64,000 bases of DNA. It comes from Halostreptopolyspora alba (GTDB taxonomy: Bacteria > Actinomycetota > Actinomycetes > Streptosporangiales > Streptosporangiaceae). Below the pieces are notes generated by a model. It worked only from the letters and a program-made list of their open reading frames with translations. It made no database searches and was not told the DNA's origin. The translations under genes and the position numbers were made by a program. This document shows positions 7,039-26,296 of the stretch, piece after piece (the stretch's first letter is position 1; every line of letters starts with the position of its first letter). The stretch covers positions 310,001 through 374,000 of the forward strand of contig RJMB01000001.1 in assembly GCA_003725585.1 (NCBI GenBank), given 5' to 3'.

Positions 7039-8292
7039 TCAGACCGTCGTCCCACGCCCCGCGCGAAACCCCGCCATTACCAGCACAACCGAGCACACGA
7101 CCAGGGCCGTCAGTGAGGACGCCCAACTCCCGGTGATGTCGTGCAGCGCCCCCATGGTCACGGGGCCCGTGGCGCACAGCATGAAGCCGGCGGTCTGCGC
7201 CATCGCGGTGAGGCGGGCCGCGGTCGCCACGTCCGCGGAGCGGAGTAGCGGAAGCGCGTATCCGATGGCGGTTCCCCCACCCAGCCCGACACCCAGCAGG
7301 ACGCTCCACAGTTCGGTGGCGCCGGTGGCGCCGGACCACAGCCCGAGTATGGGGACTACCAGCAACGCTCCGGTCGCCGCGATCAGCCACACCTGCCCCC
7401 GGGTTCGGCTGATGAGGATTCCCGCGCCCAGAGCCGCGGGGACGGCCGCGATATTGACCAGGGAGAGCATGGCGCCGGCGCGTACCGGGCTCATTCCCTC
7501 CGACATCAGGATCGTCGGCAACCAGGCCGACAGCGCGTAGAACAGCAGGGCCGGGATCGCGAAAACGAGCGTCACGGCCCACGCCGTTGGGCTGGCCCAA
7601 AGCGACGGTCGGGGGGATCCGGGCTGAGTCGGATCGGGCTGCTGCTCCCGGCCGCGTGCCGAACGGTCGAGCGGCATCCGCGCCAGCCACACGAGCAGCG
7701 CCATCGCCGGGAGTACCCCCCACAGAACCACGGCCGAACGCCAACCGATTCCGGCCGCGTGCTGCACCGGCAGCGTCAGACCGGCGCCGAGCGCCGCCCC
7801 GAGGTACAGCGCCATGCTGTACAGGCCGGTCAGCACGCCGGCGTGGTCGGGATGGTCACGCTTGACCAGAGGAGGGAGCAGGACGTTGCCCACCGTGATC
7901 GCGATGCCGAGTACGGCCGTCCCGACGAACAGGCCCGCCTGGTTCGGGAACCAGCGGATCCCGAACCCGACGAGCATGACGACCAGCGAGGCGCCGATCA
8001 TGGTGGACAGCCCCCACCGGTGCCCCATACGGGCCGCGAGCGTGGAGAAGAGCGCGAAGCAGGCCACCGGAATCGACACCAGGAGGCTGGCGACGGCACC
8101 ACTGAACTGTTCCTCGCGCTGGATCTGGTCGAGAACCGGCGGGACCGCTGTGATCGGCAGCCGAAGGTTGAGCGCGACCGCCACGACGCACAGCGCGGCG
8201 AACCACAGAGGGGGAGAGCTGGCGGGTCTGGCGATGTCTGGCGACCCTCCCGTGCGTTCCGCCCTCCGATCCGCCCCGGCGGGTAACCTCAC
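7039..8292 (-). CDS. CynX/NimT-type MFS exporter, last gene of the biosynthetic cluster
   Basis: 417 residues with twelve hydrophobic helices. The start of helix 1 reads ALNLRLPITAVPPVLDQI, a hallmark of the CynX/NimT branch of the major facilitator family (cyanate and 2-nitroimidazole transporters). GTG 8292 is the start: it overlaps the TGA of the diiron oxygenase gene (8289-8291), so the two genes are translationally coupled and transport is tied to the pathway. Export of, or resistance to, the cluster product is inferred. Codon 3 is TTA, rare in high-GC actinobacteria and a typical target of bldA-type tRNA control. Confidence 0.85.
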   Translation of the reverse strand: MRLPAGADRRAERTGGSPDIARPASSPPLWFAALCVVAVALNLRLPITAVPPVLDQIQREEQFSGAVASLLVSIPVACFALFSTLAARMGHRWGLSTMIGASLVVMLVGFGIRWFPNQAGLFVGTAVLGIAITVGNVLLPPLVKRDHPDHAGVLTGLYSMALYLGAALGAGLTLPVQHAAGIGWRSAVVLWGVLPAMALLVWLARMPLDRSARGREQQPDPTQPGSPRPSLWASPTAWAVTLVFAIPALLFYALSAWLPTILMSEGMSPVRAGAMLSLVNIAAVPAALGAGILISRTRGQVWLIAATGALLVVPILGLWSGATGATELWSVLLGVGLGGGTAIGYALPLLRSADVATAARLTAMAQTAGFMLCATGPVTMGALHDITGSWASSLTALVVCSVVLVMAGFRAGRGTTV

Positions 8293-9275
8293 CTCTGTGG
8301 TGCGACCGTGACCGTCGACCAGTCGAAATCCAGCCGATCGAGCAGGTCGAGGTCGGAACAGAAACGGTACAGATCGGTGAAGTTCGTCAGAAGCCGTTGT
8401 GTGGACGGATCCTCCTCCACTTCCCGGACCATATCGTATCCGTTCTTGACCCCAACGAGGTCCATAACGCTACGCCACGAGGAAAAGTCGTTCGCGGCGA
8501 ACGCTTCCAGGCCGTCCACCAGCGCCTCCTCGAAGAGACGTCGCCTTTTCTGGTCGAGCCGGTCGTACACCGCCGCCACGAAGTCCCGCGTTATCGACGA
8601 GTGACAGTACTCGTCGCGATTGTGCATCGTGGCGGTCGCCTTGTGGATCGGCTGGATGACGTCGTCATCTGCCATGAGGTCCAGGTATGAGTTGATCGAG
8701 ATCTCGGCGACCGTGGTGAACGCCAGCGCCGACAGGTCGCTTTCCCACTGCTCCCGTGCGCCCTGGCAACGCCGCTGCAGGCGGCGGGCCTTGTGTCCGA
8801 TCGGTAGGGCGGTCTCGGGCATTCGCCAGCCGCGGTGCCGCCGCATTACGCCGCTCGCGTTGAGGTGCATCAGCGTGTGGTACTGCTCGTCCACCATCGC
8901 CTGGGTGACGGCGGTCGTAACCGTCTCCATGTTCAACCCACTGTCGTAGACACCGCGGGTGATGTTCGCGAAGGTTGGGTTAACCACGTACTGCTCGGTG
9001 TCGATGATGTGCTTGTTGAAGCACACCATCCCCCAGCCGAGAACGCGTTTTCTGGTCTCCTCCGAAAGGGAGAGATACGTGTCGTGCTCCCTGAACGGAA
9101 CCAGGTTCTCCGGATAGTCGGGACGCTCCGGTTCGTACAGGTCCTCCAGTGCCGGTTCGGGTTTCTTCACGGTGGCGCGACGATGCCAGTTTCCGGCGAG
9201 CCTCCTTATGACGGCGCTCTCCACCGGGTCGTTGGGGTCGTGGTCCGGAAGTGAGGCGACGGGGTTCTCTGCCAT
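8289..9275 (-). CDS. AurF-like diiron N-oxygenase
   Basis: 328 residues of the AurF family (non-heme diiron enzymes such as AurF and CmlI, which oxidise aryl amines to hydroxylamine, nitroso and nitro groups). All seven AurF metal ligands are in place with family spacing: Glu94, Glu130-x2-His133, Glu191, and His218-x3-Glu222-x2-His225. ATG 9275 is preferred over an upstream in-frame ATG because GGAGAGG lies just before it. It follows the PKS gene by 25 bp and overlaps the exporter by 4 bp. In this cluster the likely substrate is the hydrazine/hydrazone nitrogen rather than an aromatic amine: I infer oxidation to diazo, azoxy or nitro. The AurF fold is near certain; the substrate is open. Confidence 0.88.
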   Translation of the reverse strand: MAENPVASLPDHDPNDPVESAVIRRLAGNWHRRATVKKPEPALEDLYEPERPDYPENLVPFREHDTYLSLSEETRKRVLGWGMVCFNKHIIDTEQYVVNPTFANITRGVYDSGLNMETVTTAVTQAMVDEQYHTLMHLNASGVMRRHRGWRMPETALPIGHKARRLQRRCQGAREQWESDLSALAFTTVAEISINSYLDLMADDDVIQPIHKATATMHNRDEYCHSSITRDFVAAVYDRLDQKRRRLFEEALVDGLEAFAANDFSSWRSVMDLVGVKNGYDMVREVEEDPSTQRLLTNFTDLYRFCSDLDLLDRLDFDWSTVTVAPQR

Positions 9276-9300
9276 GATTCCTCTCCGATACAACCTGCTG

Positions 9301-12300
9301 TTACAGGTGGTTCGCCGCGATCTCCTCGATCGTCGATTCCAGAACGGTCGTGGCGGGCACGTTCACGCCCCACCGGCGTTCGATCCGTACGCGTACCTCC
9401 CCGGCCGCGAGTGAGTCGGTCCCCAGGAGCCGCAGCGGCTTCTCCCGCGAGACACCCGAGGGGGGCACCCCCAGGACATCGGCGATCTCCTTGGCGAGCT
9501 CCGTAGCGGTGTCACTCGGCAACGGGGCCGTGGACGTCGGGCGGTCCGCCACGGAGACGTCGCCCTGGCGCGCACCGTCCGACCGGGTACCGTCGTCGTC
9601 CGCCGGCCCGATCTCGACGCGCGCGGGGTGGGACCCTGTTACCGCGCAGCTCCAGCCGGAGCCGTCCCGACGCACGTCGACCCGGATGGTGGGCTGGTCG
9701 TGGGCGCTCGTGCGCGCTCGGGGGCTCGGCGTGAACCAGACCGAGCGGCGTTGCCACGGGTAGCGCGGCATGTCCTCGGGGGCCGGTACAGCCGGGTACC
9801 GCGCCCCCCAGTCGAGATCGACCCCGGCGTTGTAGAGATCCGAGGTAGCCCTGGCCACACCGGAGCTCTCCGGCTCCTCGCGTGTCGGGCCAGCCACAAC
9901 CGAATGTCGCTCGTCCTGGTGCGCGGCCAGGCACTGGCGAAGGACCGGGCTCAGCACGGCACGCGGGCTGATTTCGAGGAACACCGTCCTGCCCTGGGCG
10001 CACTCGGCGGTCACCGCGTCACGGAACCGCACGGGCTCGCGCAGGTTGTCGCCCCAGTAGGCGGCGCCGAGATCCGCTCCGGCCATGACCCGGGTTGTCA
10101 CGGTCGACCGGAAGGACGCTGTGGTGGGTCGTGGGGCGAGCGCGCCGAGGCTGTCGACCAGTGGCCGCCGTAACGGGTCCATGTGGGCGCTGTGCGCGGC
10201 GAACGGGATCCGGACGCGGCTGGTTCGGACACCACGCCCGTCGAACGTGTCGAGCAGTAGCTCCAACGCCTCGGAGTCACCGGAGACCACCGTGGAGCGC
10301 GGCCCATTGTGCGCGGCCACCGCGACGCGATCACCGTACTCGGTGATCTCCGCGGCCACCTCGCCCTCTGGCAGCCCCACTGCGAGCATTCCGCCACGCC
10401 CGTCGGCGTGGCTGGTCAACTCGGCCCGTCGACAGATCAGCCGCGCGCCGTCGGTGAGACCGATAGCTCCGGAGACGCAGGCGGCGGCCACCTCACCGAA
10501 ACTGTGCCCCAGCACCGAGTCCGGCCGTACACCCCAGGAGCGCCAGTACGCGGCCAGTGCCATGTGCATCGCCCAGCACGCCGGCTGGATCGTCTCGGAG
10601 CCCCGTAGGGCTCCCGGGGCGTCACCGGTGAGCAGCTCCGTCACCGACCATCCGGACTCGGCCCGGATCGCCGCGTCGCACTCGTGCAACGCGTCGCGGA
10701 AGGCCGGTGACGTCGCCAGGAGCGCCCGCCCCATGCCGTGCCACTGGCCACCGTGGCCGCCGAAGACGAACGCGATCCGGGGCCTCTCACCCACGGGGTC
10801 GACCGCGCCCCGCCGGACCTCCCGTAACGCTGTGGCCAGCCCGGCGCCGTCGTTCGCCGCGACCGCGGCGCGCCACTGGTGATGACTTCGCCCCCGGGCC
10901 GCCGCGGCACAGATCCACTCGGCCTCGGCGGCGCCGGTTCCGTCGATCCGATCCGCGAGGGAGTCGGCCAGTGCCTCCGCGGCGGCCGGGTCACGCGCCG
11001 AGATCGGCAGCACCAGCGGTTGGCCGGAGGGCTCGGGGACCGGGGCCGTCGGGGCCGCCCCGAGCAGCGCGTGCACGTTGGTACCCGACAGCCCGAACGA
11101 CGTGACCCCGGCCACGGGATCGCGGTCGCTCGGCCACGGCACCGGAGCGACCGGGATGTCGAGTGACCTTCGCTGGTCCGCGAGAACCGGGTGCGGGTCG
11201 CGCAGCAGCGGATTGCCGGGGATCTCCCGATGGTGCACGCTCAGTGCCGCCTTGATGAACCCCGCGATTCCGGCCGCGGACTCAGGGTGCCCGATGTTGC
11301 TCTTGGCGGAGCCCACACGGCACGGGCGTTCGGGTTCCCGGCCGGTGCCCAGCGCGTTGGCCAGCGCGCGCAGCTCGATGGCGTCGCCCACCTCGGTACC
11401 GGTGCCGTGCGCCTCGACATAGTCGACATCCGAGGGACGCACGCCAGCGATCTCGACAGCGTCCGCGAGCAACCGCTCTTGGGCCTCCTGGCCGGGCGCT
11501 GTCAACGAGCTCCCACTACGGCCGTCGTTGTTCGCGACGCTGCCCAACACGACCGCGTAGACGCGGTCGCCGTCGGCGCGAGCCCGTGCCAGGGGTTTGA
11601 GCACGACGACGCCCGCACCGTCGGACCGCACGAAACCGTCGCCCGAGGCGTCTCCGAACCGGCAACGTCCGCTGCGGGACATGAGGCCGACCTGTTCGTA
11701 GACCGCGGCGAGTTCGGGCACCAGAACCAGGTTGACTCCACCCGCCAGCGCCAGCGTGGACTCACCGGTGCGCAGGCTCTGGCAGGCCAGATGGACCGCG
11801 AGCAGCGACGAGGAGCACGCGGTGTCCAACGAGACGCTCGGGCCACGCAGGTCCAGGTCGTAGGACAGGCGTCCCGACGTGAACGACGACAGCCCGCTGC
11901 CGACCAACGAGTGCACGTCGACCGAGGTCTGACGGCTCTGGAGATCCCAGTAGTCACGGCCCATCTGACCCATGAACACACCGGTACGTGACCCGCCCAG
12001 CGATGTCGGCGGGACCAGCGCGTCCTCCAGCGCTTCCCAGGCCACTTCGAGGAGGATCCGCTGCTGTGGATCCATACGCGCGGCCTCGCGCTCGGAGATG
12101 TCGAAGAACGTCGGGTCGAACCCGTCCACGTCGTCGAGGAATCCGCCCTGCCGGGGATGGGCGGCTCCACCGAGCAGCGGCGGCAGCTCGGCGAAGACAC
12201 CGTGGTCGCCGCTTCGCGAATCGGGGACGTCGGTCACGGCGTCCACGCCGTCGAGCAGGAGTCGCCAGAAGGCTTCGGGGCCCGACGCGCCCGGGAAACG

Positions 12301-13188
12301 ACAGCCGATCCCGACCACCGCCACGGGTTCGCCACCGGCCGGCCGGATGTCCGGTGCGTCACCGTGGCCGGCGGTACCGGACATTGACGTTGGCCCCTCG
12401 CTCGTGCCGGACACACCGCGCGACGGTGGCTCCGGCGACGAGGAACGACGCAGTTCGGCCAGGACGGTCCGGCTCACCGCCCGCGCGTGCTCGTCGACGA
12501 AGAAGTGGCCGCCCGGGAACGTGTGGACGGTCGACTCCCCACGGGTGACCTCCGACCACGCGGACGTGTCACTCTCCCGCGTAAGTGGGTCCTCCTCGCC
12601 CACGAGGACCGTGACGGGACAGTCGAGCAGCGGGCCCGGCTGGTGCGTGTAGGAGGTGAACAGGGCGACATCGGCGCGCAGGCCGGGCAGGGCGGCCCGC
12701 AGCAGGTCCCGGTTCTCGTGGAGCTGCGGCGGCACACCGCCGAGCTCCTCGATCTCGCTGAGCAGCGCCTCGTCGGAGCTCGGTGCCGCGCTGCGGTCCG
12801 CGGGCCCCTGGTGGGGTGCGCCCACCCCGGCCACCAGCAGCCGTTCCGGAGAGGGCAGCCCTTCACGGTGCAGGTGACGCGCGACCTCGTAGGCGAGCAG
12901 CGCGCCCAGGCTGTGGCCGAACAGGGCGAAGGGACGGTCGGTGTGTGGCGCCACGGCGGCGGTCACGGCGGTGACGATCGAGTCCAGCGACGAGGGGGGC
13001 GCCTCGTCCGCGCGTCGCTCCCGACCGGGAAGCTGTACCGGAACGATGTCGACCCAGGGGGGTACCAGGGTTGGCCAGTCCCGGAAGGCCGAAGGGCCAC
13101 CCCCCGAATGGGGAAAGCAGAATAACCGCACCTTCGCCGAATGCCGCGGTGATCGGGCCAGCCACGGCGACGGTTCATTCCTGTCCAT
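9301..13188 (-). CDS. Single-module type I PKS: thioesterase-KS-AT-ACP
   Basis: 1295 residues in an unusual order. Residues 18-250 are a type II-like thioesterase with FPHSGGG and catalytic GHSLG (Ser93), and a late GGHFF His. Residues 286-712 are a ketosynthase with DTACSSS (Cys458), EAHGTGT (His594) and KSNIGH (His634). Residues about 803-1090 are an acyltransferase with GHSFGE (Ser896); its specificity loop reads FAAHS (996-1000) instead of YASH (methylmalonyl) or HAFH (malonyl), so the extender is not predictable. Residues 1228-1295 are an ACP with LGTDSL (Ser1259). There is no KR, DH or ER, so one extension should leave a beta-keto thioester, and the N-terminal thioesterase may release or cyclise it. 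ATG 13188 follows AAGGTG. Expected donor: the free carrier protein at 16116-16385. Confidence 0.92.
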   Translation of the reverse strand: MDRNEPSPWLARSPRHSAKVRLFCFPHSGGGPSAFRDWPTLVPPWVDIVPVQLPGRERRADEAPPSSLDSIVTAVTAAVAPHTDRPFALFGHSLGALLAYEVARHLHREGLPSPERLLVAGVGAPHQGPADRSAAPSSDEALLSEIEELGGVPPQLHENRDLLRAALPGLRADVALFTSYTHQPGPLLDCPVTVLVGEEDPLTRESDTSAWSEVTRGESTVHTFPGGHFFVDEHARAVSRTVLAELRRSSSPEPPSRGVSGTSEGPTSMSGTAGHGDAPDIRPAGGEPVAVVGIGCRFPGASGPEAFWRLLLDGVDAVTDVPDSRSGDHGVFAELPPLLGGAAHPRQGGFLDDVDGFDPTFFDISEREAARMDPQQRILLEVAWEALEDALVPPTSLGGSRTGVFMGQMGRDYWDLQSRQTSVDVHSLVGSGLSSFTSGRLSYDLDLRGPSVSLDTACSSSLLAVHLACQSLRTGESTLALAGGVNLVLVPELAAVYEQVGLMSRSGRCRFGDASGDGFVRSDGAGVVVLKPLARARADGDRVYAVVLGSVANNDGRSGSSLTAPGQEAQERLLADAVEIAGVRPSDVDYVEAHGTGTEVGDAIELRALANALGTGREPERPCRVGSAKSNIGHPESAAGIAGFIKAALSVHHREIPGNPLLRDPHPVLADQRRSLDIPVAPVPWPSDRDPVAGVTSFGLSGTNVHALLGAAPTAPVPEPSGQPLVLPISARDPAAAEALADSLADRIDGTGAAEAEWICAAAARGRSHHQWRAAVAANDGAGLATALREVRRGAVDPVGERPRIAFVFGGHGGQWHGMGRALLATSPAFRDALHECDAAIRAESGWSVTELLTGDAPGALRGSETIQPACWAMHMALAAYWRSWGVRPDSVLGHSFGEVAAACVSGAIGLTDGARLICRRAELTSHADGRGGMLAVGLPEGEVAAEITEYGDRVAVAAHNGPRSTVVSGDSEALELLLDTFDGRGVRTSRVRIPFAAHSAHMDPLRRPLVDSLGALAPRPTTASFRSTVTTRVMAGADLGAAYWGDNLREPVRFRDAVTAECAQGRTVFLEISPRAVLSPVLRQCLAAHQDERHSVVAGPTREEPESSGVARATSDLYNAGVDLDWGARYPAVPAPEDMPRYPWQRRSVWFTPSPRARTSAHDQPTIRVDVRRDGSGWSCAVTGSHPARVEIGPADDDGTRSDGARQGDVSVADRPTSTAPLPSDTATELAKEIADVLGVPPSGVSREKPLRLLGTDSLAAGEVRVRIERRWGVNVPATTVLESTIEEIAANHL

Positions 13189-13289
13189 CGGGCACCTTGC
13201 CTATCTTGTCAACGTAGGGCCGATTGGTGGGTGTTCTCGTCTCGCTGTCGGGCTCCGGTGCCGACACAGCGGGGTGTTACGCTTCCCCC

Positions 13290-14387
13290 ATGTCGCCGCA
13301 GACGAATGCGAACGGGCCGTTCCGGGTGCGCGGCGTGTTCCTTCCCGAGGAAATCGAACGGGAGATCTTCGTCCACGACGGAGTGGTCAGCGCGGAACCC
13401 ATCCGCGGGGCGGAGACGCTGGTCGACCGGGGGTGGATCCTTCCGGGGCTGGTCGACGCGCACTGCCATATCGGAGCTGGCGACGACGGTCCGATCAGCC
13501 TGGACGAGGCCGCCGAGCACGCGGAGACGGACCGGGACTCCGGGGTGGCGCTGATCAGGGACTGCGGCTCGCCCACGGATACCCGTCCGTTGCAGGAGCG
13601 CCCGGACCTGCCCGAGCTGATTCGCTCCGGTCGCCACATCGCGCTTCCGAAACGCTATATTCGGGGTCTTCCACGCGACGTCGAGGATCCCGAGCTTCTC
13701 CCCGAAGTGGTGCGGGCCGAGGCGGCCGCCGGCGATGGATGGGTCAAGCTGGTCGGAGACTGGATTGACCGCGAGGTTGGCGATCTCGCGCCATTGTGGC
13801 CCGACGATGTGCTGCGCGAGGCGATCGCCGCGGCGCACGAGGCCGGGGCTCGGGTTACCGCGCACGTGTTCGGGGAGGAGGCCCTGCCCGGTCTGCTCGC
13901 GGCCGGCATTGACTGCATCGAGCACGGCCCCGGGCTCACCGAGCCGCTGATCGCGGAGATGGCGCGTAGCGGCACCGCGCTCGTGCCCACGCTGATCAAC
14001 GTCGAACGGTTCCCGCAGATCGCCGCGTCCGCGGAGAAGTTCCCGAGGTACGCCGCGCACATGCGGGAGCTGCACGCCGGGGCCAAGTCGACGGTACGGT
14101 CCGCTGTCGAGGCGGGCGTTCCCGTCTACGCCGGTACGGACGCGAGCGGTGGGGTCGCCCACGGCCGCATCGTCGATGAGGTCATGGCCCTGCACGAGGC
14201 CGGTCTCGCCGCCACCGACGCGCTGGGCGCCGCGAGCTGGGCCGCGCGCTCCTGGCTGGGAAGGCCCGACGTGACGGTGGGCAACCCGGCCACGCTCGCG
14301 GTGTACGGCGCGGACCCGAGAGAGGACCTGTCCGTGCTGCGCGAACCGGAACTCATCCTGCTGCGCGGCCGGCCGTTCCCGCGGTGA
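13290..14387 (+). CDS. Imidazolonepropionase-like amidohydrolase, antisense within the cluster
   Basis: 365 residues of the metal-dependent amidohydrolase superfamily: the LPGLVDAHCHIG motif supplies the first two His ligands (near residues 56-58), Lys or carboxy-Lys is likely in VKLVGDW, His in TAHVFGEE and IEHGPG, and Asp in GTDASG. This set of motifs is that of imidazolonepropionase-like hydrolases with very mixed substrates (cyclic amides, peptides, N-acyl compounds). It is the only gene in the cluster on the plus strand, 101 bp from the PKS start and converging on the Ntn-hydrolase 14 bp apart, so it splits the cluster into two minus-strand operons. It may cleave an N-acyl or cyclised intermediate, or be a passenger. 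Confidence 0.85.
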   Translation: MSPQTNANGPFRVRGVFLPEEIEREIFVHDGVVSAEPIRGAETLVDRGWILPGLVDAHCHIGAGDDGPISLDEAAEHAETDRDSGVALIRDCGSPTDTRPLQERPDLPELIRSGRHIALPKRYIRGLPRDVEDPELLPEVVRAEAAAGDGWVKLVGDWIDREVGDLAPLWPDDVLREAIAAAHEAGARVTAHVFGEEALPGLLAAGIDCIEHGPGLTEPLIAEMARSGTALVPTLINVERFPQIAASAEKFPRYAAHMRELHAGAKSTVRSAVEAGVPVYAGTDASGGVAHGRIVDEVMALHEAGLAATDALGAASWAARSWLGRPDVTVGNPATLAVYGADPREDLSVLREPELILLRGRPFPR

Positions 14388-14401
14388 GGTCGACACTTCG
14401 C

Positions 14402-15493
14402 TCACCCACCCGTGTGTGAACCCAGCGGTGCGGGATCCAACGTGTAGGTCCTGGTCGCGGCGGTGGAGGGATCACCGGCACGCAGGTGGAGCTCGCCCAG
14501 CTCAGGAAACAGGGCGACCGCCGCCACCGTCCGCTCCGTCCGAATGTCGCCGTTGGGGGCCACATTGATCGGCGGGTCGGACAACAGGGCCAGGTGTTGC
14601 TCCCGGGACGCGTCGAAGTCGAGCAGGTCGAGCCGCTCCCGGCAGCTCGTGAGTCGGCGTGATGAGGAGTTGCGCGCGAACACGTTCAGCTCGTCCAGCG
14701 GTGACAGCTCGGGGTCCAGGAAGTGGTTCGTGTGTACCGACTCCACGTCTCGCCGCACCGCGCAGCCGCTGGCGGGCCCGGGACGTGGGATCTCCACGAC
14801 CGCCGTCGTACTCTGGTCGCACAGCATCAATGCCCGTGAGCTGGCGACCTCCAGCCCGCGAAGCTCGTCGACGGCCTCGTCGACGGAGGACGCGTGGTCC
14901 AGCAGATGTCGAACCGCCAGGTACATCGGTAAACCCGGCCCCCAGTCGCCGGCGAGCACCAGGTTGATGCCGACCGCCAGGCCCGAGTCGTTGATCCCGA
15001 GGTAGCCCAGCTGTCCGCCGAAGCTCAGGGTCAGTGTCCTCCTTCCGGAGTCAGCCCGCCGGATGTCGAGTACCGCGATCTGGTCCTCGAGGTCGCCGTT
15101 GAGGTCGACGGTCTGCGCCAGGACGGGAGTCGAGCTGCTCGCGCCGCTGCGGGCGTAGGTGGTGCAGTCCCCAAGGCTCGGAACCCGCTGGTAGCCGAGC
15201 AGCTCACGGCGGGCCTGGAGCAGCACCGCGGCGCGTGGGGTGATCCCCGCCCCGGTGGCGAGGGCGTCCATCTCGACCGCGAGTCCGGGAGTCTGGTCCC
15301 GGATCGCGGCGGCGTAACTGTCGAGTGTCGCGTCGAGGTCACCCGGCGGTGGATCCATCAGGTGGTCGAGCCGGGCGCGCCCGTCCGCGACGAAGGCGCG
15401 CAACCGCGTGGCGAGCTGGCTGCCATGGGCGTGTCCGATCTCCTCGTGCGTGCCCGTCAGCACCAGGTGCGGCACGACTGCGGCCCCGGTCAT
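14402..15493 (-). CDS. C45-type Ntn-hydrolase (acyl-CoA:6-APA acyltransferase-like)
   Basis: 363 residues of the C45/carcinine hydrolase-IAT class of cysteine N-terminal nucleophile hydrolases. The likely self-processing site is at GDCTTYA (Cys110), giving an 11-kDa alpha chain and a beta chain with Cys at its N-terminus; downstream the LNGDLEDQIAVLDI and GYLGINDSGLAVGIN motifs follow as in the family. These enzymes hydrolyse or transfer acyl groups on amide nitrogen. ATG 15493 overlaps the GNAT stop (ATGA), so the two are co-translated. I infer it removes the N-acyl group added by the GNAT once the hydrazine has been oxidised. Confidence 0.8.
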   Translation of the reverse strand: MTGAAVVPHLVLTGTHEEIGHAHGSQLATRLRAFVADGRARLDHLMDPPPGDLDATLDSYAAAIRDQTPGLAVEMDALATGAGITPRAAVLLQARRELLGYQRVPSLGDCTTYARSGASSSTPVLAQTVDLNGDLEDQIAVLDIRRADSGRRTLTLSFGGQLGYLGINDSGLAVGINLVLAGDWGPGLPMYLAVRHLLDHASSVDEAVDELRGLEVASSRALMLCDQSTTAVVEIPRPGPASGCAVRRDVESVHTNHFLDPELSPLDELNVFARNSSSRRLTSCRERLDLLDFDASREQHLALLSDPPINVAPNGDIRTERTVAAVALFPELGELHLRAGDPSTAATRTYTLDPAPLGSHTGG

Positions 15494-17898: not shown

Positions 17899-19955
17899 GC
17901 CGGTGCTCCGGTCTCGACCGGCTGGGTGTCCGCGCCGGGTACGACGGGATCGACGGGAGCGAAGAAGTGGGTCTCGGCCAGGGCCACCCGTGTCCCGGGC
18001 TCGAGAAGGGAGACCCGTGAGGGCCAGCGGCCGGGAGGTGTGTCGGATCCGAGTGCCCGCAGGAGCCGCTCCGCGAACCGCGGCATGAGTGGCGCGGACG
18101 TGGTCGCGAGCAATCCGGCGGCGGCCGCCTGCACGGCCGTGGTGGTCCGGTTCTCCGCGTCCCAACCCGCCACGTCGGCAGTGTGGCGCTGTTCCCCGGC
18201 GAACCGGATCGCGTCGGTCACTAGGCCGTCGAGTTCGGCCGCGGCCCGGTTGAGGGAGAACCCGTCGGGAGACAGCGCGGCGGTGACTGCCTGGAGACGG
18301 ATGTCGAGCTGGTCGAGGAACGCTGTGTGCTGGGCGGTCCAGACGCCGGCGTCCGGCAGGCGACCGTCGTGGTGCCGGGCTACTCGCTCGCCGAGTTCGC
18401 GCAGCCATCTCTGCCATCGCCCGACCAGGATTTCGGCGACGGTCGACTCGAAGTCGTCGCGGCGGAAGTCGGTGCGCTCTCCCTCGGGGCGTGTCCAGCA
18501 GAGGAAGAACCGCACGGCGTCGACCGTCTCCGGTGAGAGAACCTCCTTGCCCCAGATGAGGTGGCGCCGGCTCGTGGAGAACTTGTCGCCCTCGAACAGA
18601 TAGAACTCGTTCGGGTGGTAGTCGATCGACGGTTCCCATTCCGGAAGCGCGGCCCGGTAGAGCGCCGGATAGAGAACGGAGTGGTAGAAGCTGTTGTCGT
18701 AGCCGAAGAAGTGGACGATCTTCCAGTCCGGGCTCGGTGCGGTAGCCCGCCAGTCGGCACCGATGCGCTTCCCGAGCGCCTCGATTCCGTACAGGAATCC
18801 GAATGACATCTCTGGCCACACCCAGACCACCTGGTCGCGTGCGGTGCCGGTGAGGTCGTTCCCGGCGGGGCGCACCCCCCAGGAGGAGGGGTGGGTGAGG
18901 GGAACGTCGAGCCGGCCGCGGGCGAAGATCCGCTGGGCCAGCTCACTCAGCCTCGGGGGTGTACGCCCGAGCCGGTGGTGCTCGCGGACCTCCGTGGCGA
19001 ACTCGTGTAGTGGCATCACGAAGTGTTCGACCGCTCGGGCGGCGACCTGGCCGCTGTCCCGGTTGGCGCGCGGCTCGCGCAGGTCGGTACAGACGTTGGG
19101 CTCGCCGCACTCCTCGCAGATGTTTCCGTTGGTGGTCTCGCCACAGCCGGGGCACCCTCCGCGGACGTCGACCTCGTACAGGTAGCGTCCCTCGCTGTCG
19201 AACAGCGCGGTCCCCGACTGGAACCGGATCCGACCGGAACCGACGAGCCGGGAGAAGAAGTCACGGATCGTGGCGGTGTAGTCGGGATCGGTGTGGGTCA
19301 CGGTGAACTGGTCGATACCGATGTCCATGAGACGCAGCGTCTCTCGGATCTCCTGTCCATACTGGGCAGCGACCTCGGCGGGAGCCCGCCCCTCACGTTC
19401 GGCGAGTGCGAGCACGTAGCTCTGGTAGTCGTCACTACCGGTCAGGTGCCAGGCCGTGTTCCCGTTCAGCCGCTGGAACCGAACGTAGGCGTCCGCCCCG
19501 AGATAGGGGCCGGACAGATGACCGAGGTGAAGATCGCCGTTCGGCGTGGGCGGGGTCGAGAACACGAAGACCGGGCGCTCGCCGAACCTGCGTCGGTTTG
19601 GCCGGAGCGCCGCCTGTTGCGCGGCACGGGTGGCGTCTCTCCAGTACAGGTCGGCGAGGATCAGGTCCACCTCACCGGTGTTCTCCACCACGTGGGTCTC
19701 GAACGGCTCGAACACGACCGCGTTTCCAGCCTCGATGCGCTGTCGCGCGCCGTCGACGTGGAGGAGTCCGCTCCCGTGCGTGATGACGAACACCTCGGTC
19801 TCGTCGTGTTGGTGCGCCTCGCTGCGGCTCCCCGGCGCCACACGTGCCCATGAGAGCCCGACGCCGAGGTCGTGTGTGGGGTCCGCCTCGATCTCGGCCA
19901 TGTCGATGCCGAATGCCTCGGTGAGCCGTTCGGGGTCGAATTTCGCGACGATCAT
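17895..19955 (-). CDS. Cupin-methionyl-tRNA-synthetase fusion, hydrazine synthetase
   Basis: 686 residues. Residues 1-110 are a cupin with HxHxxxE (His48, His50, Glu54) and His88 as Zn ligands. Residues from 125 on are a class I synthetase core of the MetRS type: HLGH (143-146) for HIGH, a zinc knuckle with Cys268/271 and Cys280/283, and KFSTS (458-462) for KMSKS. Spb40 of s56-p1 and relatives with this fusion are known to join N6-hydroxylysine and glycine: the synthetase part makes a glycyl ester on the hydroxylamine and the cupin part rearranges it to the N-N bond. A housekeeping MetRS has no cupin domain. ATG 19955 overlaps the oxidase stop. The lysine N6-hydroxylase two genes upstream supplies its substrate. 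Confidence 0.9.
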   Translation of the reverse strand: MIVAKFDPERLTEAFGIDMAEIEADPTHDLGVGLSWARVAPGSRSEAHQHDETEVFVITHGSGLLHVDGARQRIEAGNAVVFEPFETHVVENTGEVDLILADLYWRDATRAAQQAALRPNRRRFGERPVFVFSTPPTPNGDLHLGHLSGPYLGADAYVRFQRLNGNTAWHLTGSDDYQSYVLALAEREGRAPAEVAAQYGQEIRETLRLMDIGIDQFTVTHTDPDYTATIRDFFSRLVGSGRIRFQSGTALFDSEGRYLYEVDVRGGCPGCGETTNGNICEECGEPNVCTDLREPRANRDSGQVAARAVEHFVMPLHEFATEVREHHRLGRTPPRLSELAQRIFARGRLDVPLTHPSSWGVRPAGNDLTGTARDQVVWVWPEMSFGFLYGIEALGKRIGADWRATAPSPDWKIVHFFGYDNSFYHSVLYPALYRAALPEWEPSIDYHPNEFYLFEGDKFSTSRRHLIWGKEVLSPETVDAVRFFLCWTRPEGERTDFRRDDFESTVAEILVGRWQRWLRELGERVARHHDGRLPDAGVWTAQHTAFLDQLDIRLQAVTAALSPDGFSLNRAAAELDGLVTDAIRFAGEQRHTADVAGWDAENRTTTAVQAAAAGLLATTSAPLMPRFAERLLRALGSDTPPGRWPSRVSLLEPGTRVALAETHFFAPVDPVVPGADTQPVETGAPA

Positions 19956-21016
19956 TGTGTGAGTCCCTCTCGGTCGGCACTGCGGGCCAGAAGGTCGGCG
20001 GTTCGAGTGGCGATGGCGGGCCCGAGGCGGTACCCGGAGCCGTTCGCCGCGCCGGCGAACACGATCCGCGGGGTGAGCGCGCGGACATCCGGCTCGCCGG
20101 AGGCCGCGTAGGCGTCGCAGAACACGCGGCCCGAGTGCACGCGGTCGGCGAGGTGCGGCGCCCAGGAACGGAGCACATCGCGCCCCTCGTCGAGGTCCGC
20201 TGAGGTGAGCGCGCTGGGAAGCGTCTCCGGACGGACGTCCCAGTCGTGACTCGTGTAGCTGAAGAGCCAGTGGCCACGGTCCGGCAGGGGAAGGAGAAAG
20301 GCGTCCTCGTCGTGGAACACGACGGTGGGGGACCGGGATGGCGGCACGGCGTCCACGTGGAGCGCCACGACCTTCTTCACACGGACCGGCAGCTCGGCCA
20401 CCAGCGGGCGCCACGCCCGGTGGCTCAGCCACGGTCCGGGCGCGAGCACCACCTCGCGCGCGTGGACCGTCCTTCCCGTCGCCGTGGTCAGAGCCACGTG
20501 ATCGTCCGCTTCCGTGAGGCCGGAAACCTCGACACCCTCGTGTACGGCCGCGGAGTGGCGTAGTCGGGCGGTCAGCGCGGCGGTGACCGACTGGACATCG
20601 GCGTGCTGGGCCCCGGCCACGGACCAGGCGGTCGCGTCGGACGGCAGGCGGTCCAGAGGTTCCGGCGCTCCTTCCCGCGCGGGTACCGGGCGCCCGAGGT
20701 AGATCTCGCTGAGCCGCTCGGGGTGGGTCGAGCGGGTGAGCACGTTCATCGTCAGCGACCGGATGCCCAAGTCCGGCCGTTCCGTGACCAGCTCCCGGTA
20801 ATAGTTCTCGCTCAACCGGGTCCAGGAGCGGACGGTCGGTGTCAGCCCGCGTGGGATGTGCAGGCCGGCGGAACGCCGGCTGGCGCCGTCACCCGCGAAC
20901 CCGCGGTCGAGTATCGCGACGGTGGCGTGAGGACGTCGGCGTAGTACTTCCGTGGCTACCAGGGAACCGACGATCCCGGCCCCGACGACGGCGATGTCGA
21001 CGACTGTCTTGGGCAT
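19952..21016 (-). CDS. FAD-dependent amine oxidase (DAO family), hydrazine-cleaving
   Basis: 354 residues of the D-amino-acid-oxidase/GlpD-like family. The dinucleotide fold VVGAGIVGSLVATEVLRR begins at residue 10, with the substrate-domain motif RRSAGLHIPRG and the C-terminal GAANGSGYRLGPAIA loop contacting FAD. In hydrazine pathways the neighbouring enzyme of this family oxidises the lysine C6 of N6-(carboxymethylamino)lysine, releasing hydrazinoacetic acid and 2-aminoadipate 6-semialdehyde. ATG 21016 is chosen because the nucleotide-binding motif then sits at the usual position; an in-frame extension upstream is Arg/Ser-rich. It overlaps the cupin-MetRS gene by 4 bp. Confidence 0.85.
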   Translation of the reverse strand: MPKTVVDIAVVGAGIVGSLVATEVLRRRPHATVAILDRGFAGDGASRRSAGLHIPRGLTPTVRSWTRLSENYYRELVTERPDLGIRSLTMNVLTRSTHPERLSEIYLGRPVPAREGAPEPLDRLPSDATAWSVAGAQHADVQSVTAALTARLRHSAAVHEGVEVSGLTEADDHVALTTATGRTVHAREVVLAPGPWLSHRAWRPLVAELPVRVKKVVALHVDAVPPSRSPTVVFHDEDAFLLPLPDRGHWLFSYTSHDWDVRPETLPSALTSADLDEGRDVLRSWAPHLADRVHSGRVFCDAYAASGEPDVRALTPRIVFAGAANGSGYRLGPAIATRTADLLARSADREGLTQ

Positions 21017-21062
21017 CACTCGGCCACCTGCGCGTGTCTGCTCATCGTGGGTGCGTTCTCGT

Positions 21063-22475
21063 TCATCGGGGGTGCTCCAGGAGGTGGTCCGGCTCGATCT
21101 GGAGTTGCCAGGTAATGAACGAAGCGAGCTGCCGCGTGCTCCGCGCACCGCGGATCCGGTCGAGGATCTGCTGGCTTCGCCACGCGACGAGACTGAGGTT
21201 CGGGTCGGCCACGCCGCGTTGTTTTCGTGCCGCGTTCTGCAGGAACACGTTCCGGTCGGGTGGGCCGTCCCAGTTCACCGCGAAGTCCTCGTCGATCCGG
21301 AACTCGTCGCCCTCACGCTCGAAACGGTGCGCGATCGGGTCGAGGAAAGAGGTCTCCGCCGTTCGGAACCCCGTAGCCCATATGACGACGTCCGTTTGGA
21401 TGGAGGTTTCCGGCGTGGGACAGTTGTTGTCGACCAGCGACAGCCGCCACGGAAAACCATCCTCGCCTTTTACCGCGGTAACGGTCCTGTTCGGGTGGAG
21501 CTCGAGGAAATCGGTCGATCCCTCAACGAAGCGGTGGACGTACGCGCGCTGGTAGATGTCTTGTAACGTCGCCAGTGAGATTCCGTCGCTCGCGAGGACG
21601 TTCTCGTTGTTGATGCTCTCACGGAGCCGTTGGTCAAGGGCGTAGAAATAGTCGGAGTACGAGGGGGTGAAATAGTCGTTGGTGAACGGTGAGTCGTCGA
21701 TCGGAAGAAAGTTGGCGCGGCGTGAGATCCATTGGACCTTGCGTGGGAGGTCCCGCTCCGGGCGGGATATGAGGTCCAGTACGGCCTCGGCTCCGGACTG
21801 TCCTCCGCCGACCACCGCGACCCGCTTGTTGGCCAGGTCCGAGGACCTGGACACGAACTCGTTCACGTGGAACTGGGTCCGTCCGAGCTGCGCGACCGAG
21901 GGTACGCGGGGCTCGCTTCCGACTCCCACGACAAGGTTGTCCGCGGAGATCCGGCGATGACTGGTGGCGATGACGAAGCGGTCCCGCTCGAAGTGGACGG
22001 ATCGGACGTCCTCACCGAATACGACGTTCTCGTTTTGGCTGCTGGCCCATTTGAGGTAGTTACGGAACTCTTTTCGGGGAACGGCGCTGAACTGGGCGTT
22101 GAGGAAGTGGTAGATCCGACCCTGCTCGTGGAGGTAGGAGAGGAACGAGAACTTGTTCGTGGGGTTGGAGAGGGTGACCAGGTCCTTCAGGGGGGAGACC
22201 TGTAGGGCGGCGCCGTCGATCTGCTGGTCGTCGTGCCAGGAGAACTGATTCTTCCGGTCGAGGAAGATGTTCGATATCTCCGAGTGTTCGTGCAGCAGTG
22301 AAGCAAGGCTGAGATTCGCCGGCCCCGCGCCGACACCCACGCAATGATAGTGCATATTATCGTTTGTTGCGGGTTGTTCCTTGACCCCGGCGTCGAGAGA
22401 GGACACGAAACTGTCATCGTGGGGGTATCCGCCCGGCTCGTGGGGTGCCGGGAATTCAGGCGTGCGACTGGTCAT
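21063..22475 (-). CDS. Lysine N6-hydroxylase (flavin N-monooxygenase)
   Basis: 470 residues of the lysine/ornithine N-hydroxylase family. FAD motif GVGAGPANLSL (47-57), NADPH motif GGGQSGAE (223-230) and the ATGF motif (367-370) are all intact, and FSFLSYLHEQGRIYHF and RREFRNYL-like segments match the class. Length is close to IucD-type enzymes plus an N-terminal extension of about 40 residues. It converts L-lysine with NADPH and O2 to N6-hydroxylysine, the first step of the hydrazinoacetate route. ATG 22475 has GGAG at 8 bases; it follows the saccharopine reductase by 4 bp. Ornithine as substrate cannot be excluded by sequence alone, but the cupin-MetRS partner argues for lysine. Confidence 0.9.
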   Translation of the reverse strand: MTSRTPEFPAPHEPGGYPHDDSFVSSLDAGVKEQPATNDNMHYHCVGVGAGPANLSLASLLHEHSEISNIFLDRKNQFSWHDDQQIDGAALQVSPLKDLVTLSNPTNKFSFLSYLHEQGRIYHFLNAQFSAVPRKEFRNYLKWASSQNENVVFGEDVRSVHFERDRFVIATSHRRISADNLVVGVGSEPRVPSVAQLGRTQFHVNEFVSRSSDLANKRVAVVGGGQSGAEAVLDLISRPERDLPRKVQWISRRANFLPIDDSPFTNDYFTPSYSDYFYALDQRLRESINNENVLASDGISLATLQDIYQRAYVHRFVEGSTDFLELHPNRTVTAVKGEDGFPWRLSLVDNNCPTPETSIQTDVVIWATGFRTAETSFLDPIAHRFEREGDEFRIDEDFAVNWDGPPDRNVFLQNAARKQRGVADPNLSLVAWRSQQILDRIRGARSTRQLASFITWQLQIEPDHLLEHPR

Positions 22476-22479
22476 GGAT

Positions 22480-23682
22480 CTACTCCGAAGAATGTGTGCC
22501 GCCTGATCGAACGCCACCTAATTTCGGGACGATTCTCGCGTGGTGAAGCTCGGTGAGCCACCGTCGGCCCTCGGCGCCGGAGGCGGCGCGCGAGATGCCC
22601 GCTGGAAGTCGCGAGTGGAGAATGGCGCGGATTCCGCACGCCAGAGTCTCCGAGACGCAGCGCGCCATCGCGGTCTCCTGGTCATCACCCACGACGTCCA
22701 GTACGTGGCTGTCCGACCATGAGTGACCGTCGTCCGTCCGGAGGTCCAGGCGAACCTGTAGTACGACGCGGTCCCTGTCCTCGGCGCGCATCGGGTACTG
22801 GCGCGCCAGGTCGTCGGCCAGCGCGCCGATGGCGGCGTCGTCGCCCCGCTCTACCACGGGAAAGACCTCGGACCACGCGTCGTGCCATCCATCGAGGCGC
22901 AGCGTTCCGCGGACGAACCTGTCGACACGCCACGTGTGCGGAATTCCGTACGCCGCTATGAACGGGACGCTGTCCCTGTTCGGGTAGGCTTCGAAGCTCT
23001 CCTCGGCGACCCGGTGGTGCTGGGTCGCTTTCCAGGGGTGGACGGCCGTGCGTTCCCGGCCGTGCTCGATGTATCGGGCGGGAGTACGCAGGGCGGTGAG
23101 CACGCCCGCGGGTGCCCAGCTGAAGCGGTACCGGAACGAGTTTGGCTGGGCTGGCACTCCGCCGCAGAAGGACGTGAACTCCACACGCCCGGGCCGGCTT
23201 CCCACCGCCCCGCTCGCTCGTTCGACCAGGTCGTGGGCGAAGAGGTGGTCGATACCCGGGTCGAGACCCGCCTCGGTGAGAATCACGCTGCCGTTCGCGC
23301 GCGCTTCGGGCTCGACCTCCTCCATGGCCGGTGAGGTGTAGCTGCTGCAGACGAAGTGGCCACCACTCTCGAGGCACCGTCGCAGGAGCTCCGCGTGCTC
23401 GGTGGCGGGGACCATCGAGACGACGATGTCGCCCGGTCGGATCTCCGCGGCGAGAGCCTCAAGGTCGAGTAATCGGAACTCGACTTGGTCCTGGATCCCC
23501 ACCCGCCGCAGGCAGGCGCGTGCCCGATCCGCCGCGCGCCCCCAAACCACGACTGTTTCGGCCTGGTCGCAGACGGCGCGCAGCCCCCGTCCGGTGGAGC
23601 GGCCGGTGCCGACCCAGTGCACGGTGCCCGAAGCGGGACGCGTGTCTCGTCGCGCCCCTCGGTCCGTGATGGTCTCGGTCAT
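22480..23682 (-). CDS. Saccharopine reductase-like dehydrogenase (LYS9 type)
   Basis: 400 residues. An N-terminal Rossmann strand (HWVGTGRSTGRGLRAV) is followed by the LYS9-type core: ILTEAGLDPGIDHLFAHDLV and CGGVPAQPNSFRYRFSWAPAGVL, which are hallmarks of eukaryotic-type saccharopine reductase rather than bacterial amino-acid dehydrogenases. That enzyme reductively couples 2-aminoadipate 6-semialdehyde with glutamate to give saccharopine using NADPH. ATG 23682 overlaps the stop of the LYS1-like gene. The semialdehyde is the by-product of the FAD oxidase in this operon, so a salvage role is the obvious inference. Confidence 0.85.
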   Translation of the reverse strand: MTETITDRGARRDTRPASGTVHWVGTGRSTGRGLRAVCDQAETVVVWGRAADRARACLRRVGIQDQVEFRLLDLEALAAEIRPGDIVVSMVPATEHAELLRRCLESGGHFVCSSYTSPAMEEVEPEARANGSVILTEAGLDPGIDHLFAHDLVERASGAVGSRPGRVEFTSFCGGVPAQPNSFRYRFSWAPAGVLTALRTPARYIEHGRERTAVHPWKATQHHRVAEESFEAYPNRDSVPFIAAYGIPHTWRVDRFVRGTLRLDGWHDAWSEVFPVVERGDDAAIGALADDLARQYPMRAEDRDRVVLQVRLDLRTDDGHSWSDSHVLDVVGDDQETAMARCVSETLACGIRAILHSRLPAGISRAASGAEGRRWLTELHHARIVPKLGGVRSGGTHSSE

Positions 23683-24749
23683 GGAAGGACTCCTTGGTGT
23701 GTGGTTTCGGAGGTGTCGATACCCGCGGTCTCGCAGGCGTGGTCGAAGGCGGTTCGCACGCGCCGCCACACCGGGTCGGACAGTCCGTGACGGCCGAGCC
23801 GGACGAGATGTGGCAGCAGGGCGGCGGAGAACGTGGTGCTGGCCTCGATTGGCAGGAGTGAGGGCAGGTTGTCGATCGCGATGACCTCTCCCCCACGGGG
23901 AAGGGAGAGCACGGGCTCGTCCCACGAAGTTGTGCGGTCGTGCAAGCTCAGGAGGTCGTACGGAGTCCCGACATCGCACGTGACGTCGGCGACGAGACGT
24001 AGCCTGCTGTGGCCTCTGTCGAGGTCCTCGGGGCCGACCAGGGGTGGTCCGGCTTCGTTCGCCCCGACCGCGTGCACCAGCACGTCGTGTGACCGCAGCG
24101 CTTCGCGGTCGATGCTCCTGGTCTGCTCGACGTCCCAGCGTGTTGGTTCGATGCCCGCGCGGGAGACCGCGTCGCACGCTCCCCGACCGGCACGACCAAG
24201 GGCACCGACGACCAGCACCCTCGGTTCGGCGGAGGTCGCCCTGACGAGGGAGGCGTCGAGTTCGCGGCGGGTGGTCGGGTGTAGGGGAGGGGCCAACTGG
24301 TCCCAAAAGCGCAGTATGGCCAGCGCCGCGCCGACGTAGCCGGCCCAGTAGCCGAACGTGACGACACGACGACCAGTGGCGTCGACCAGGCTTTCGAGGT
24401 CGAGCAGTGTTCCGCCGCCCGAGCGGAACCGGCGTAACAGTGCGTGGGCCCCGGGTTGGCCGCGATAGGCGTGGCCGAAGAGGACGTGCCGGGAACGCAG
24501 ATGGGTGGGGAGCTCGGGGAGTTCTTTCAACCCGAGCACGACCTCGTCGGGATGCGAGTCCGCCCAGCTCCCCTCGTCGGCGATGGCGCAGCCGAGCGCC
24601 GCGTAGTCGTTGGTGGGGAAACAGCGACTCCGGGACTTCTCGACCGTGACCCGGATTCCGGCTCGGGTGAGGCGTCCGGCGTCGTCCGGGGTGAGTGGCG
24701 CTCGACGCTCGACGGATCTGGTTTCCGCCCGCATATGTATTGCTGGCAT
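23679..24749 (-). CDS. Saccharopine dehydrogenase, lysine-forming (LYS1 type)
   Basis: 356 residues. The N-terminus RAETRSVERRAPLTPDDAGRL and the GLKELP (Lys) and FGHAYRGQPG (His) motifs are those of LYS1/alanine-dehydrogenase-fold enzymes, and FGYWAGYVGAALAI and LDLESLVD are characteristic of saccharopine dehydrogenases forming lysine. It would oxidise saccharopine with NAD to lysine and 2-oxoglutarate. Of two close ATG codons, 24749 is preferred because GGGAG lies 7 bases upstream; the one at 24755 would abut the ribosome-binding site. With the LYS9-like gene it forms a complete two-step path from semialdehyde to lysine. Bacteria normally make lysine by the diaminopimelate route and rarely carry this pair. 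Confidence 0.85.
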   Translation of the reverse strand: MPAIHMRAETRSVERRAPLTPDDAGRLTRAGIRVTVEKSRSRCFPTNDYAALGCAIADEGSWADSHPDEVVLGLKELPELPTHLRSRHVLFGHAYRGQPGAHALLRRFRSGGGTLLDLESLVDATGRRVVTFGYWAGYVGAALAILRFWDQLAPPLHPTTRRELDASLVRATSAEPRVLVVGALGRAGRGACDAVSRAGIEPTRWDVEQTRSIDREALRSHDVLVHAVGANEAGPPLVGPEDLDRGHSRLRLVADVTCDVGTPYDLLSLHDRTTSWDEPVLSLPRGGEVIAIDNLPSLLPIEASTTFSAALLPHLVRLGRHGLSDPVWRRVRTAFDHACETAGIDTSETTHQGVLP

Positions 24750-24775
24750 CGGCATCTCCCGCGGGGGATGAGGGA

Positions 24776-26011
24776 TTATCGTTCACGGCGGGCCGCACGC
24801 CCCAGTGCGGAATCCGCGATAATCGATCTCTGGATCTCGGATGTGCCTTCGTATATGCGCAGGGACCGCACCTGCCGGTACAGCCGTTCAGGCAGGCTTC
24901 CCGCCTCGACACCCGCGGCTCCGAAGATCTGCACGGTCGCGTCGGCGACCTCTTGGGCGGACTCCGTCGCGTACAGTTTCGCGATGCTGGAACTCTCGGC
25001 GAACCCCCGCCGCTCGTGGTCGAGATCCCACGCGGCACGCGTCACCAGAAGAGACGCGGCGTTCAGTTTGACCTCCATCTCAGCCAGCACGCTGCGGACC
25101 GTTCCCAGGTCGGCCAGGTATCCGGATCCGAGGTTTCGGCCGCGTGCCCGAGCGGCGGCGGCGTTGGCCGCGCGACGGCCGAATCCGAGCGCCGCGGCAC
25201 CGACCGTCATGCGGAAGCGTTCCAGGATCTCCATCGCGATCGAGTACCCCTGTCCGGGGCGCCCGATGACATTACGAGCGGGAACGAAACAGCCGTCGAA
25301 GCGAAGATGCGAGAACGACCGTGGAGCGATGGAGCCAACCGGTTCGACGGTGAGTCCGGGCGTATCGGAGGGGACCAGCAGCAGGGACAACCCGAGTGGT
25401 CCGGGACCCTCACCCGTACGCGCCAGAACGCTGTGGACGTCGGCCGAATCGCCACCGGCGATCCACGCTTTCCGTCCGGTGAGGGCGTAGCCTCCGTCAA
25501 CGGGGGTGGCACGCAGCTCGACCGCGGAGAGATCCGAGCCCGCCGACGGTTCCGAGAGCGCCAGGGTCCCCGAGGAGTCACCGCGTGACATGCCGGGTAA
25601 CCACCTGTTCCGCTGCTCGACGGTGCCGTACCGGACAAGGGGAGCCGCGGCCAGCGCCTGGATCGAGAACGAGAAGTCGGCGAGGTCCTCGGCGTAGGCC
25701 AGGTGCCGCCGGATGAGGCACAACGACCGCGCGTCACCGCGCGTTCGGTCGCCTTCGGACCCCGGGTGCAGGAATTCGAACCAGCGGGCGGCCCCGAGCG
25801 CGCGGCGTATTTCTTTTCCCGTGGTGACGGGAGAACGCCTGTCCTCGGGATCCTCCCAGAGGTCGGAATTATCAAAAACCCACTCCTGGATCGCGTGCGC
25901 GGTCGTGCGGTGGTGGTCATCGAGTAACGGAAGGTCGAGGACGCCGTCGTCCGGTGAGAGGTGATACTCGGACCCACGACGCGAGCTGGACGCCTCGGAT
26001 CTCGCGGTCAT
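24776..26011 (-). CDS. Acyl-CoA dehydrogenase-like flavoenzyme, first gene of the main operon
   Basis: 411 residues with the full acyl-CoA dehydrogenase fold: an N-terminal helical domain, the beta domain with LALSEPSAGSDLSAVE and YALTGRKAWIAGG, and the C-terminal domain ending in LRIYEGTSEIQRSII, which holds the usual catalytic Glu. In hydrazine-derived pathways a dehydrogenase of this kind can oxidise the N-CH2 bond of carrier-bound hydrazinoacetate to a hydrazone (N=CH); the nearby carrier protein and ligase support that use. A normal fatty-acid role is unlikely from context. Start ATG 26011 has only a weak ribosome-binding site, and a candidate promoter lies about 290 bp upstream. Confidence 0.85.
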   Translation of the reverse strand: MTARSEASSSRRGSEYHLSPDDGVLDLPLLDDHHRTTAHAIQEWVFDNSDLWEDPEDRRSPVTTGKEIRRALGAARWFEFLHPGSEGDRTRGDARSLCLIRRHLAYAEDLADFSFSIQALAAAPLVRYGTVEQRNRWLPGMSRGDSSGTLALSEPSAGSDLSAVELRATPVDGGYALTGRKAWIAGGDSADVHSVLARTGEGPGPLGLSLLLVPSDTPGLTVEPVGSIAPRSFSHLRFDGCFVPARNVIGRPGQGYSIAMEILERFRMTVGAAALGFGRRAANAAAARARGRNLGSGYLADLGTVRSVLAEMEVKLNAASLLVTRAAWDLDHERRGFAESSSIAKLYATESAQEVADATVQIFGAAGVEAGSLPERLYRQVRSLRIYEGTSEIQRSIIADSALGRAARRER

Positions 26012-26296
26012 GTGCGTACCGGATCCCGTCTGTCGGTTGGGAGGTGTGAGGTCGCGGCCAGTAGCGAGAATTGGGGGTAGTCCACGGGGGCGAGCGCATG
26101 GAGCCCTTGGTGAGGGTTCCGGTGGGAATTTCTCATTGACGGTCTTCTCCGGAAGTCACCGGTGTTGTCCCCGTGCGGGGGCATCACGGAAAAGTTGATA
26201 CCGCACGTGAACGCGGTTTCGGGGAAACGGAGTTCGGAGTCGCGAAGAGCTGTGCGCGCTCATGGAAAGTTCGGTGTCGATCTCAATTCGCTGGAG

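Follow-up and report, generated by a model that had tools for sequence, protein, structure and literature searches.

The window analysed here, 64,000 nucleotides of contig RJMB01000001.1 (positions 310,001 to 374,000), contains at 7039-26011 a block of biosynthetic genes that we read, with a probability of roughly 0.85, as a dob-type cluster in a Streptomonospora-like actinomycete, predicted from its sequence to make 4-diazo-3-oxobutanoic acid and diazoacetone. The reference system is the dob cluster of Nocardia ninae, which according to the available text of Pfeifer et al. (Nature 2026; PMC13061610) yields these two compounds via oxidation of a hydrazone. DobG, E, F, B, C, Q, M and A together build a hydrazonoacetyl carrier protein there, and Dob2, a polyketide synthase (PKS) with the domains thioesterase, ketosynthase, acyltransferase and acyl carrier protein (TE-KS-AT-ACP), extends the hydrazonoacetyl unit using malonyl-CoA. 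The ferritin-like diiron enzyme Dob3 converts the hydrazone into the diazo group, while Dob4 and Dob1 are a predicted transporter and a predicted regulator, respectively. The cluster was expressed in S. coelicolor, most of its steps were reconstituted, and dob was reported from N. ninae and 14 further Nocardia strains (same text).

The minus strand of the block carries 13 genes, each of which is an open frame without internal stop as judged by Pfam, translations and start calls. They are transcribed in the order acyl-CoA dehydrogenase, Lys1-type, Lys9-type, lysine N6-hydroxylase, flavin adenine dinucleotide (FAD) oxidase, fusion of a cupin with a methionyl-tRNA synthetase (cupin-MetRS) and AMP-forming ligase, followed by carrier protein, GNAT, AAT-type N-terminal nucleophile (Ntn) hydrolase, TE-KS-AT-ACP PKS, AurF-type protein and major facilitator superfamily (MFS) exporter. 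Neighbouring genes overlap by four bases at 6 of the 12 junctions, among them that of the Lys9-type with the Lys1-type gene. The enzyme classes named by a first-pass annotation of the letters alone are all present as stop-free frames, and every gene that it named lies on the minus strand. Its inventory was nevertheless incomplete, because the Lys9-type, the Lys1-type and a plus-strand amidohydrolase gene had not been listed.

Eleven of the 12 published Dob functions are found in the window, the regulator Dob1 being the exception, and the hydrazone-forming set DobG, E, F, B, C, Q, M and A is complete (8/8). Apart from the Lys1/Lys9 pair, Pfam shows no biosynthetic enzyme on the operon strand beyond the dob set.

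For comparison, 150 Nocardia genomes from a genus search centred on the N. inohanensis genome were searched for Dob3 relatives at E ≤ 1e-110. Such relatives were present in five genomes, four of which gave complete dob loci with the same 11 genes in the order G-F-E-C-Q-B-A-M-2-3-4; the fifth Dob3 contig, of 4.4 kb, has PKS, AurF and MFS matches. The same 11 genes recur in all four complete Nocardia loci and in a locus from the window's family, so the block is no chance assembly. The identities given in the table compare the window with these four loci, among which N. ninae was not identified, so that its own sequence was not compared.

The PKS contains all of the TE, KS, AT and ACP active-site motifs. 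Among the 120 of 4564 matches listed, its best four were Nocardia TE-KS-AT-ACP proteins at 55-59% identity, and the other listed matches that cover at least half of the query did not exceed 51%. The AurF-type protein has a fold match to CmlI/AurF, and its best named matches are Nocardia proteins at 66-68% identity, with one further protein at 71%. The site residues of Dob3 published in PMC13061610, as given in its available text (E101, E137, H140, E198, H225, E229 and H232), are all retained as E94, E130, H133, E191, H218, E222 and H225 (7/7), with a constant shift of 7. In a Dob3 tree, the window protein and the Nocardia dob proteins share a 13-row clade (100/98). A larger 17-row clade (100/99) holds all seven rows with dob context, one of them from the 4.4-kb contig, together with ten rows of unknown context, which were scored as non-dob. 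The pairing of Dob2 with Dob3 is the mark of the dob type here. In the cupin-MetRS protein, H48, H50, E54 and H88 of the cupin are spaced like the zinc-site residues of RHS1 (D63, H65, E69 and H103), although the first position is H instead of D.

These comparisons change the earlier view of the block in three respects. It had been called hydrazine-forming, whereas a diazo compound is to be expected as its end product; the AurF-type enzyme, taken for a diiron N-oxygenase, makes better sense as a hydrazone oxidase (Dob3); and the assembly, which the first-pass annotation did not know, has in essence been published with its product (available text of PMC13061610), close to what that annotation itself had named as refuting it. 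A wholly new pathway is rejected in view of the published dob chemistry and the Nocardia comparison. On the other hand, the proposed hydrazinoacetic acid chemistry and a small N-N product with one C2 extension are consistent with our evidence and agree with the dob chemistry as published.

The pathway can be outlined by homology to the N. ninae Dob enzymes, on which every step proposed for the window is modelled. The DobG-type enzyme would hydroxylate lysine at N6, the DobE-type enzyme would couple the product to glycine via an N-N bond, and the DobF-type oxidase would cleave the adduct to give hydrazinoacetic acid and 2-aminoadipate 6-semialdehyde. DobB would then succinylate the hydrazine and DobC load it in this form onto the carrier DobQ, where DobM would oxidize it to the hydrazone before DobA takes off the succinyl group. 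Dob2 is expected to add one malonyl-derived C2 unit and, by its thioesterase, to free 4-hydrazono-3-oxobutanoic acid. From this the diiron protein Dob3 would form 4-diazo-3-oxobutanoic acid, which would lose CO2 to give diazoacetone, and Dob4 would export the diazo product.

The main difference from the Nocardia clusters is the Lys1/Lys9 pair. The Lys1-type protein matches the yeast enzyme structure 3ugk across residues 5-342 of 358, and K77 and H96 of the yeast enzyme, which we take to be its catalytic residues, align with K and H. The Lys9-type protein matches 1e5l over residues 6-253 of the 386-residue query, with PF16653 over 125-352. At E ≤ 1e-20, one Lys1 match was found in the window's genome (the operon gene itself), one in G339, another genome of its family, and none in the four Nocardia dob genomes. 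Among 15 named hydrazine-synthetase loci fetched with 10 kb on either side, two (L003 and L006) have the pair, the stretch for L014 being incomplete. The window's genome also has a DapB match and therefore likely a lysine route of its own. It is established enzymology that Lys9 and then Lys1 convert 2-aminoadipate 6-semialdehyde and glutamate via saccharopine to lysine. The available text of PMC13274452 states that this semialdehyde is the by-product of Spb39. Given the DapB match, primary lysine synthesis offers such a pair no evident task, and we therefore infer that it acts in recycling: at this locus it likely returns the by-product of the DobF step to lysine, which would serve as a recycled nitrogen carrier. 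Whether the pathway thereby regenerates its own carrier, with lysine acting catalytically and glutamate as the true source of one diazo nitrogen, we consider an even bet.

Two observations weigh against recycling. Disruption of the related genes tri23 and tri24 had no influence on triacsin production according to the available text of PMC10445470, and the pair is absent from the four complete Nocardia dob loci. From the former it follows that any gain from the pair likely concerns how much product is made, not whether it can be made at all. The same text assigns AzsH/AzsI, relatives of Lys1/Lys9, to lysine supply. Within the parts available of the open-licence literature on related pathways, which gives roles in lysine supply or like that of PyrL, we found no proposal of lysine recycling. 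The PyrL role offers another explanation, in which the pair cleaves the hydrazine adduct itself: in the pyrazomycin pathway, PyrL is suggested to turn a lysine-glutamate hydrazine into 2-hydrazinoglutaric acid (available text of PMC8664883). Yet a DobF homologue of the DAO type is already available in the window for this reaction, the four Nocardia dob genomes show no Lys1 match at E ≤ 1e-20, and one saccharopine enzyme of each type better fits a two-step return to lysine. Thus we regard adduct cleavage as unlikely and favor recycling.

With respect to the product, the block might instead make some other small N-N compound, by use of a different extender unit, by an AurF-type N-oxygenase leading to a nitro, nitroso or azoxy group, or by an additional amidohydrolase step. 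The AT motif of the window PKS is indeed FAAH in place of FASH in the four Nocardia proteins, the solved relatives of the AurF-type protein are the N-oxygenases AurF and CmlI, and an extra amidohydrolase gene lies inside the block. However, the PKS, taken as a whole, shares 59% identity with Nocardia proteins, the AurF-type protein falls into the 13-row clade with the Nocardia dob proteins, and the operon strand offers no further biosynthetic enzyme besides Lys1/Lys9, which leaves a different compound quite improbable. Besides the AT motif, the regulator and the trees count against a plain dob assignment. As Dob1 candidate we used the protein encoded upstream of dobG in all four Nocardia loci, a tentative choice made without a published sequence and with a sub-threshold HTH_23 match; it had no match in the window, nor in the window's genome at E ≤ 1e-5, while G339 has one of 40% that lies well away from its dob locus. 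In a DobE tree of 22 rows the dob loci are not united and the window sits on a weakly supported branch of its own; the dob label requires three changes compared with a mean of 5.5 in 500 shuffles, ten of which were as low, and is thus more clustered than in most of them. In the Dob3 tree, for which the program warned of a very long Stappia branch, the label needs six changes versus 6.5 in shuffles and is thus no more clustered, a result that we attribute to the ten clade rows of unknown context having been counted as non-dob. Co-inheritance of the hydrazine module with the PKS and AurF-type genes is not shown, since the DobE tree splits the dob loci. The missing Dob1 match, together with the lack of a sigma-70-like promoter in 26000-27450 (shuffles give 0.3), would also suit a locus that has decayed or fallen silent and yields no product. 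This appears very improbable, because all 13 minus-strand genes are open and because Dob3, the PKS, the DobE cupin and Lys1 retain the site residues that were checked. Overall, a dob-type cluster predicted to lead to the diazo products remains our preferred reading.

Features of the block at 7039-26011 of the window (functions assigned by homology; identities refer to the four complete Nocardia dob loci)
Feature	Coordinates	Strand	Evidence
Acyl-CoA dehydrogenase, DobM-type	24776..26011	-	Pfam PF00441/PF02770; 54-57% identity
Lys1-type saccharopine dehydrogenase (NAD+, L-lysine-forming)	23679..24755	-	phmmer to PDB 3ugk/2q99/2qrj, E ~1e-59
Lys9-type saccharopine reductase (NADP+, L-glutamate-forming)	22480..23682	-	PF16653/PF03435; PDB 1e5l E 1e-39 (query 22480-23640)
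L-lysine N6-hydroxylase, DobG-type	21063..22475	-	PF13434 E 2.7e-96 (query 21063-22415); 56-58% identity
FAD oxidase (DAO), DobF/Spb39-type	19952..21016	-	PF01266 E 7.4e-31; 48-50% identity
Cupin-MetRS hydrazine synthetase, DobE-type	17895..19955	-	PF07883 and PF09334; 59-60% identity
AMP-forming ligase, DobC-type	16375..17898	-	PF00501; 53-55% identity
Stand-alone carrier protein, DobQ-type	16116..16385	-	PF00550 E 1.1e-4, over its cut-off; 40-43% identity
GNAT, DobB-type, predicted to succinylate hydrazinoacetic acid	15490..16119	-	PF13302; 67-68% identity
C45/AAT-type Ntn-hydrolase, DobA-type, predicted desuccinylase	14402..15493	-	PF03417; 54-56% identity
Amidohydrolase	13224..14387	+	PF01979 E 5.2e-11
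Type I PKS TE-KS-AT-ACP, Dob2-type	9301..13188	-	Pfam domains; 54-56% identity
AurF-type diiron protein, Dob3-type, predicted hydrazone oxidase	8289..9275	-	67-69% identity
MFS exporter, Dob4-type (CynX/NimT subfamily)	7039..8292	-	PF07690; TIGR00896 under its cut-off; 51-54% identity

The amidohydrolase gene fills a 1213-base gap between the Ntn-hydrolase and PKS genes, the place taken by dobM in the Nocardia dob loci. It had no match among those listed for six other dob-type regions, one of which spans just 4.4 kb, and none at E ≤ 1e-20 in genomes G001 or G339. Its best solved relative aligns across residues 184-380 only.

For gyrase B of the window's genome, identity reaches 93% with the best Streptomonospora matches and 92% with Lipingzhangella. 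Among 345 genomes of the window's order, Dob3 relatives at E ≤ 1e-110 were confined to the window's genome and G339. Because the Nocardia genomes with Dob3 did not appear in this search, we place Nocardia in another order. A search of 390 genomes belonging to the same family as an Amycolatopsis genome gave one weaker match (G914 at 52%) and did not list G339. As G339 belongs to the window's family, Pseudonocardiaceae was rejected as that family. A scan for named hydrazine-synthetase loci returned 16 loci; it was not exhaustive and missed the Nocardia dob loci. No close Dob3 was detected in 15 of them (L003-L017), including the 10 kb fetched on either side. The two Stappia loci L016 (4321-5103) and L017 (4055-4837) contain a distant AurF relative of 30% identity, perhaps another diiron architecture. 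A second AurF-family gene of the window's genome lies on another contig (L001, G000:C49:144174-144998) and scores 353 bits with PF11583, compared with 174 for Dob3. Literature searches on Dob3 in connection with diazo chemistry, and on hydrazine or diazo compounds in Streptomonospora or Nocardiopsis, found no report of this locus; the supplements and Extended Data Fig. 5 of PMC13061610 were outside their scope.

Upstream of the operon, 26012-27421 is a 1.4-kb stretch without a Pfam-supported gene that contained a 217-residue frame with no Pfam match. Next to it, 27422-35588 carries an amidohydrolase, a sodium:solute symporter, a DUF997 frame and two M20 peptidases, perhaps a set for peptide or amide uptake. 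Farther along, a UvrD-type helicase and an OLD-type nuclease (39376-43228) match GajB (E 3.7e-108) and GajA (E 7.5e-174), likely a Gabija defence system, and type I restriction-modification methyltransferase and specificity genes lie at 44098-46923. Three large genes at 51754-63975 match the models of DrmMI/type IIG methyltransferase, DpdE (1572 bits) and DruE; we know of no system with this set. There were no tRNA or Rfam matches across the window.

Compared with the N. ninae cluster in the available text of PMC13061610, the block has the same 11 enzyme and exporter functions, the same domain order of Dob2 and the same Dob3 site residues. It differs from the Nocardia loci in the position of dobM, which stands at the front of the operon but adjoins the PKS gene in Nocardia, in the added Lys1/Lys9 pair and amidohydrolase, and in that Dob1 was not found in the window. 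In the G339 locus (L031/L032), each of the ten dob enzymes, the exporter and both members of the Lys1/Lys9 pair have a match, yet the gene order is different and the exporter lies on the opposite strand. Several of its genes match in more than one piece, so this locus may be decayed or poorly sequenced. The product of triacsin biosynthesis is an N-hydroxytriazene. The tri cluster shares the hydrazinoacetic acid module and has the saccharopine dehydrogenases Tri23/Tri24, but uses a polyene-forming type II PKS (available text of PMC10445470). Azaserine biosynthesis (azs/aza) likewise proceeds from hydrazinoacetic acid to a hydrazonoacetyl carrier and has the saccharopine dehydrogenases AzsH/AzsI, but employs a nonribosomal peptide synthetase (NRPS) with serine (same source), whereas the genes of the block have neither a condensation nor a cyclisation domain of the NRPS type according to Pfam. 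Furthermore, aza lacks a ferritin-like diiron enzyme according to PMC13061610. Taken together, the dob assembly itself is already known, and what the window adds is a dob-type cluster in a new host with a lysine-handling pair. The cluster extends a diazo-ketone pathway published for strains of Nocardia to a genome closest to Streptomonospora by its gyrase B, and is a source outside Nocardia of Dob2 and Dob3 homologues, including a sequence-diverse Dob3 for biocatalysis. Dob loci with and without Lys1/Lys9 provide a natural comparison that makes lysine recycling in hydrazine biosynthesis testable.

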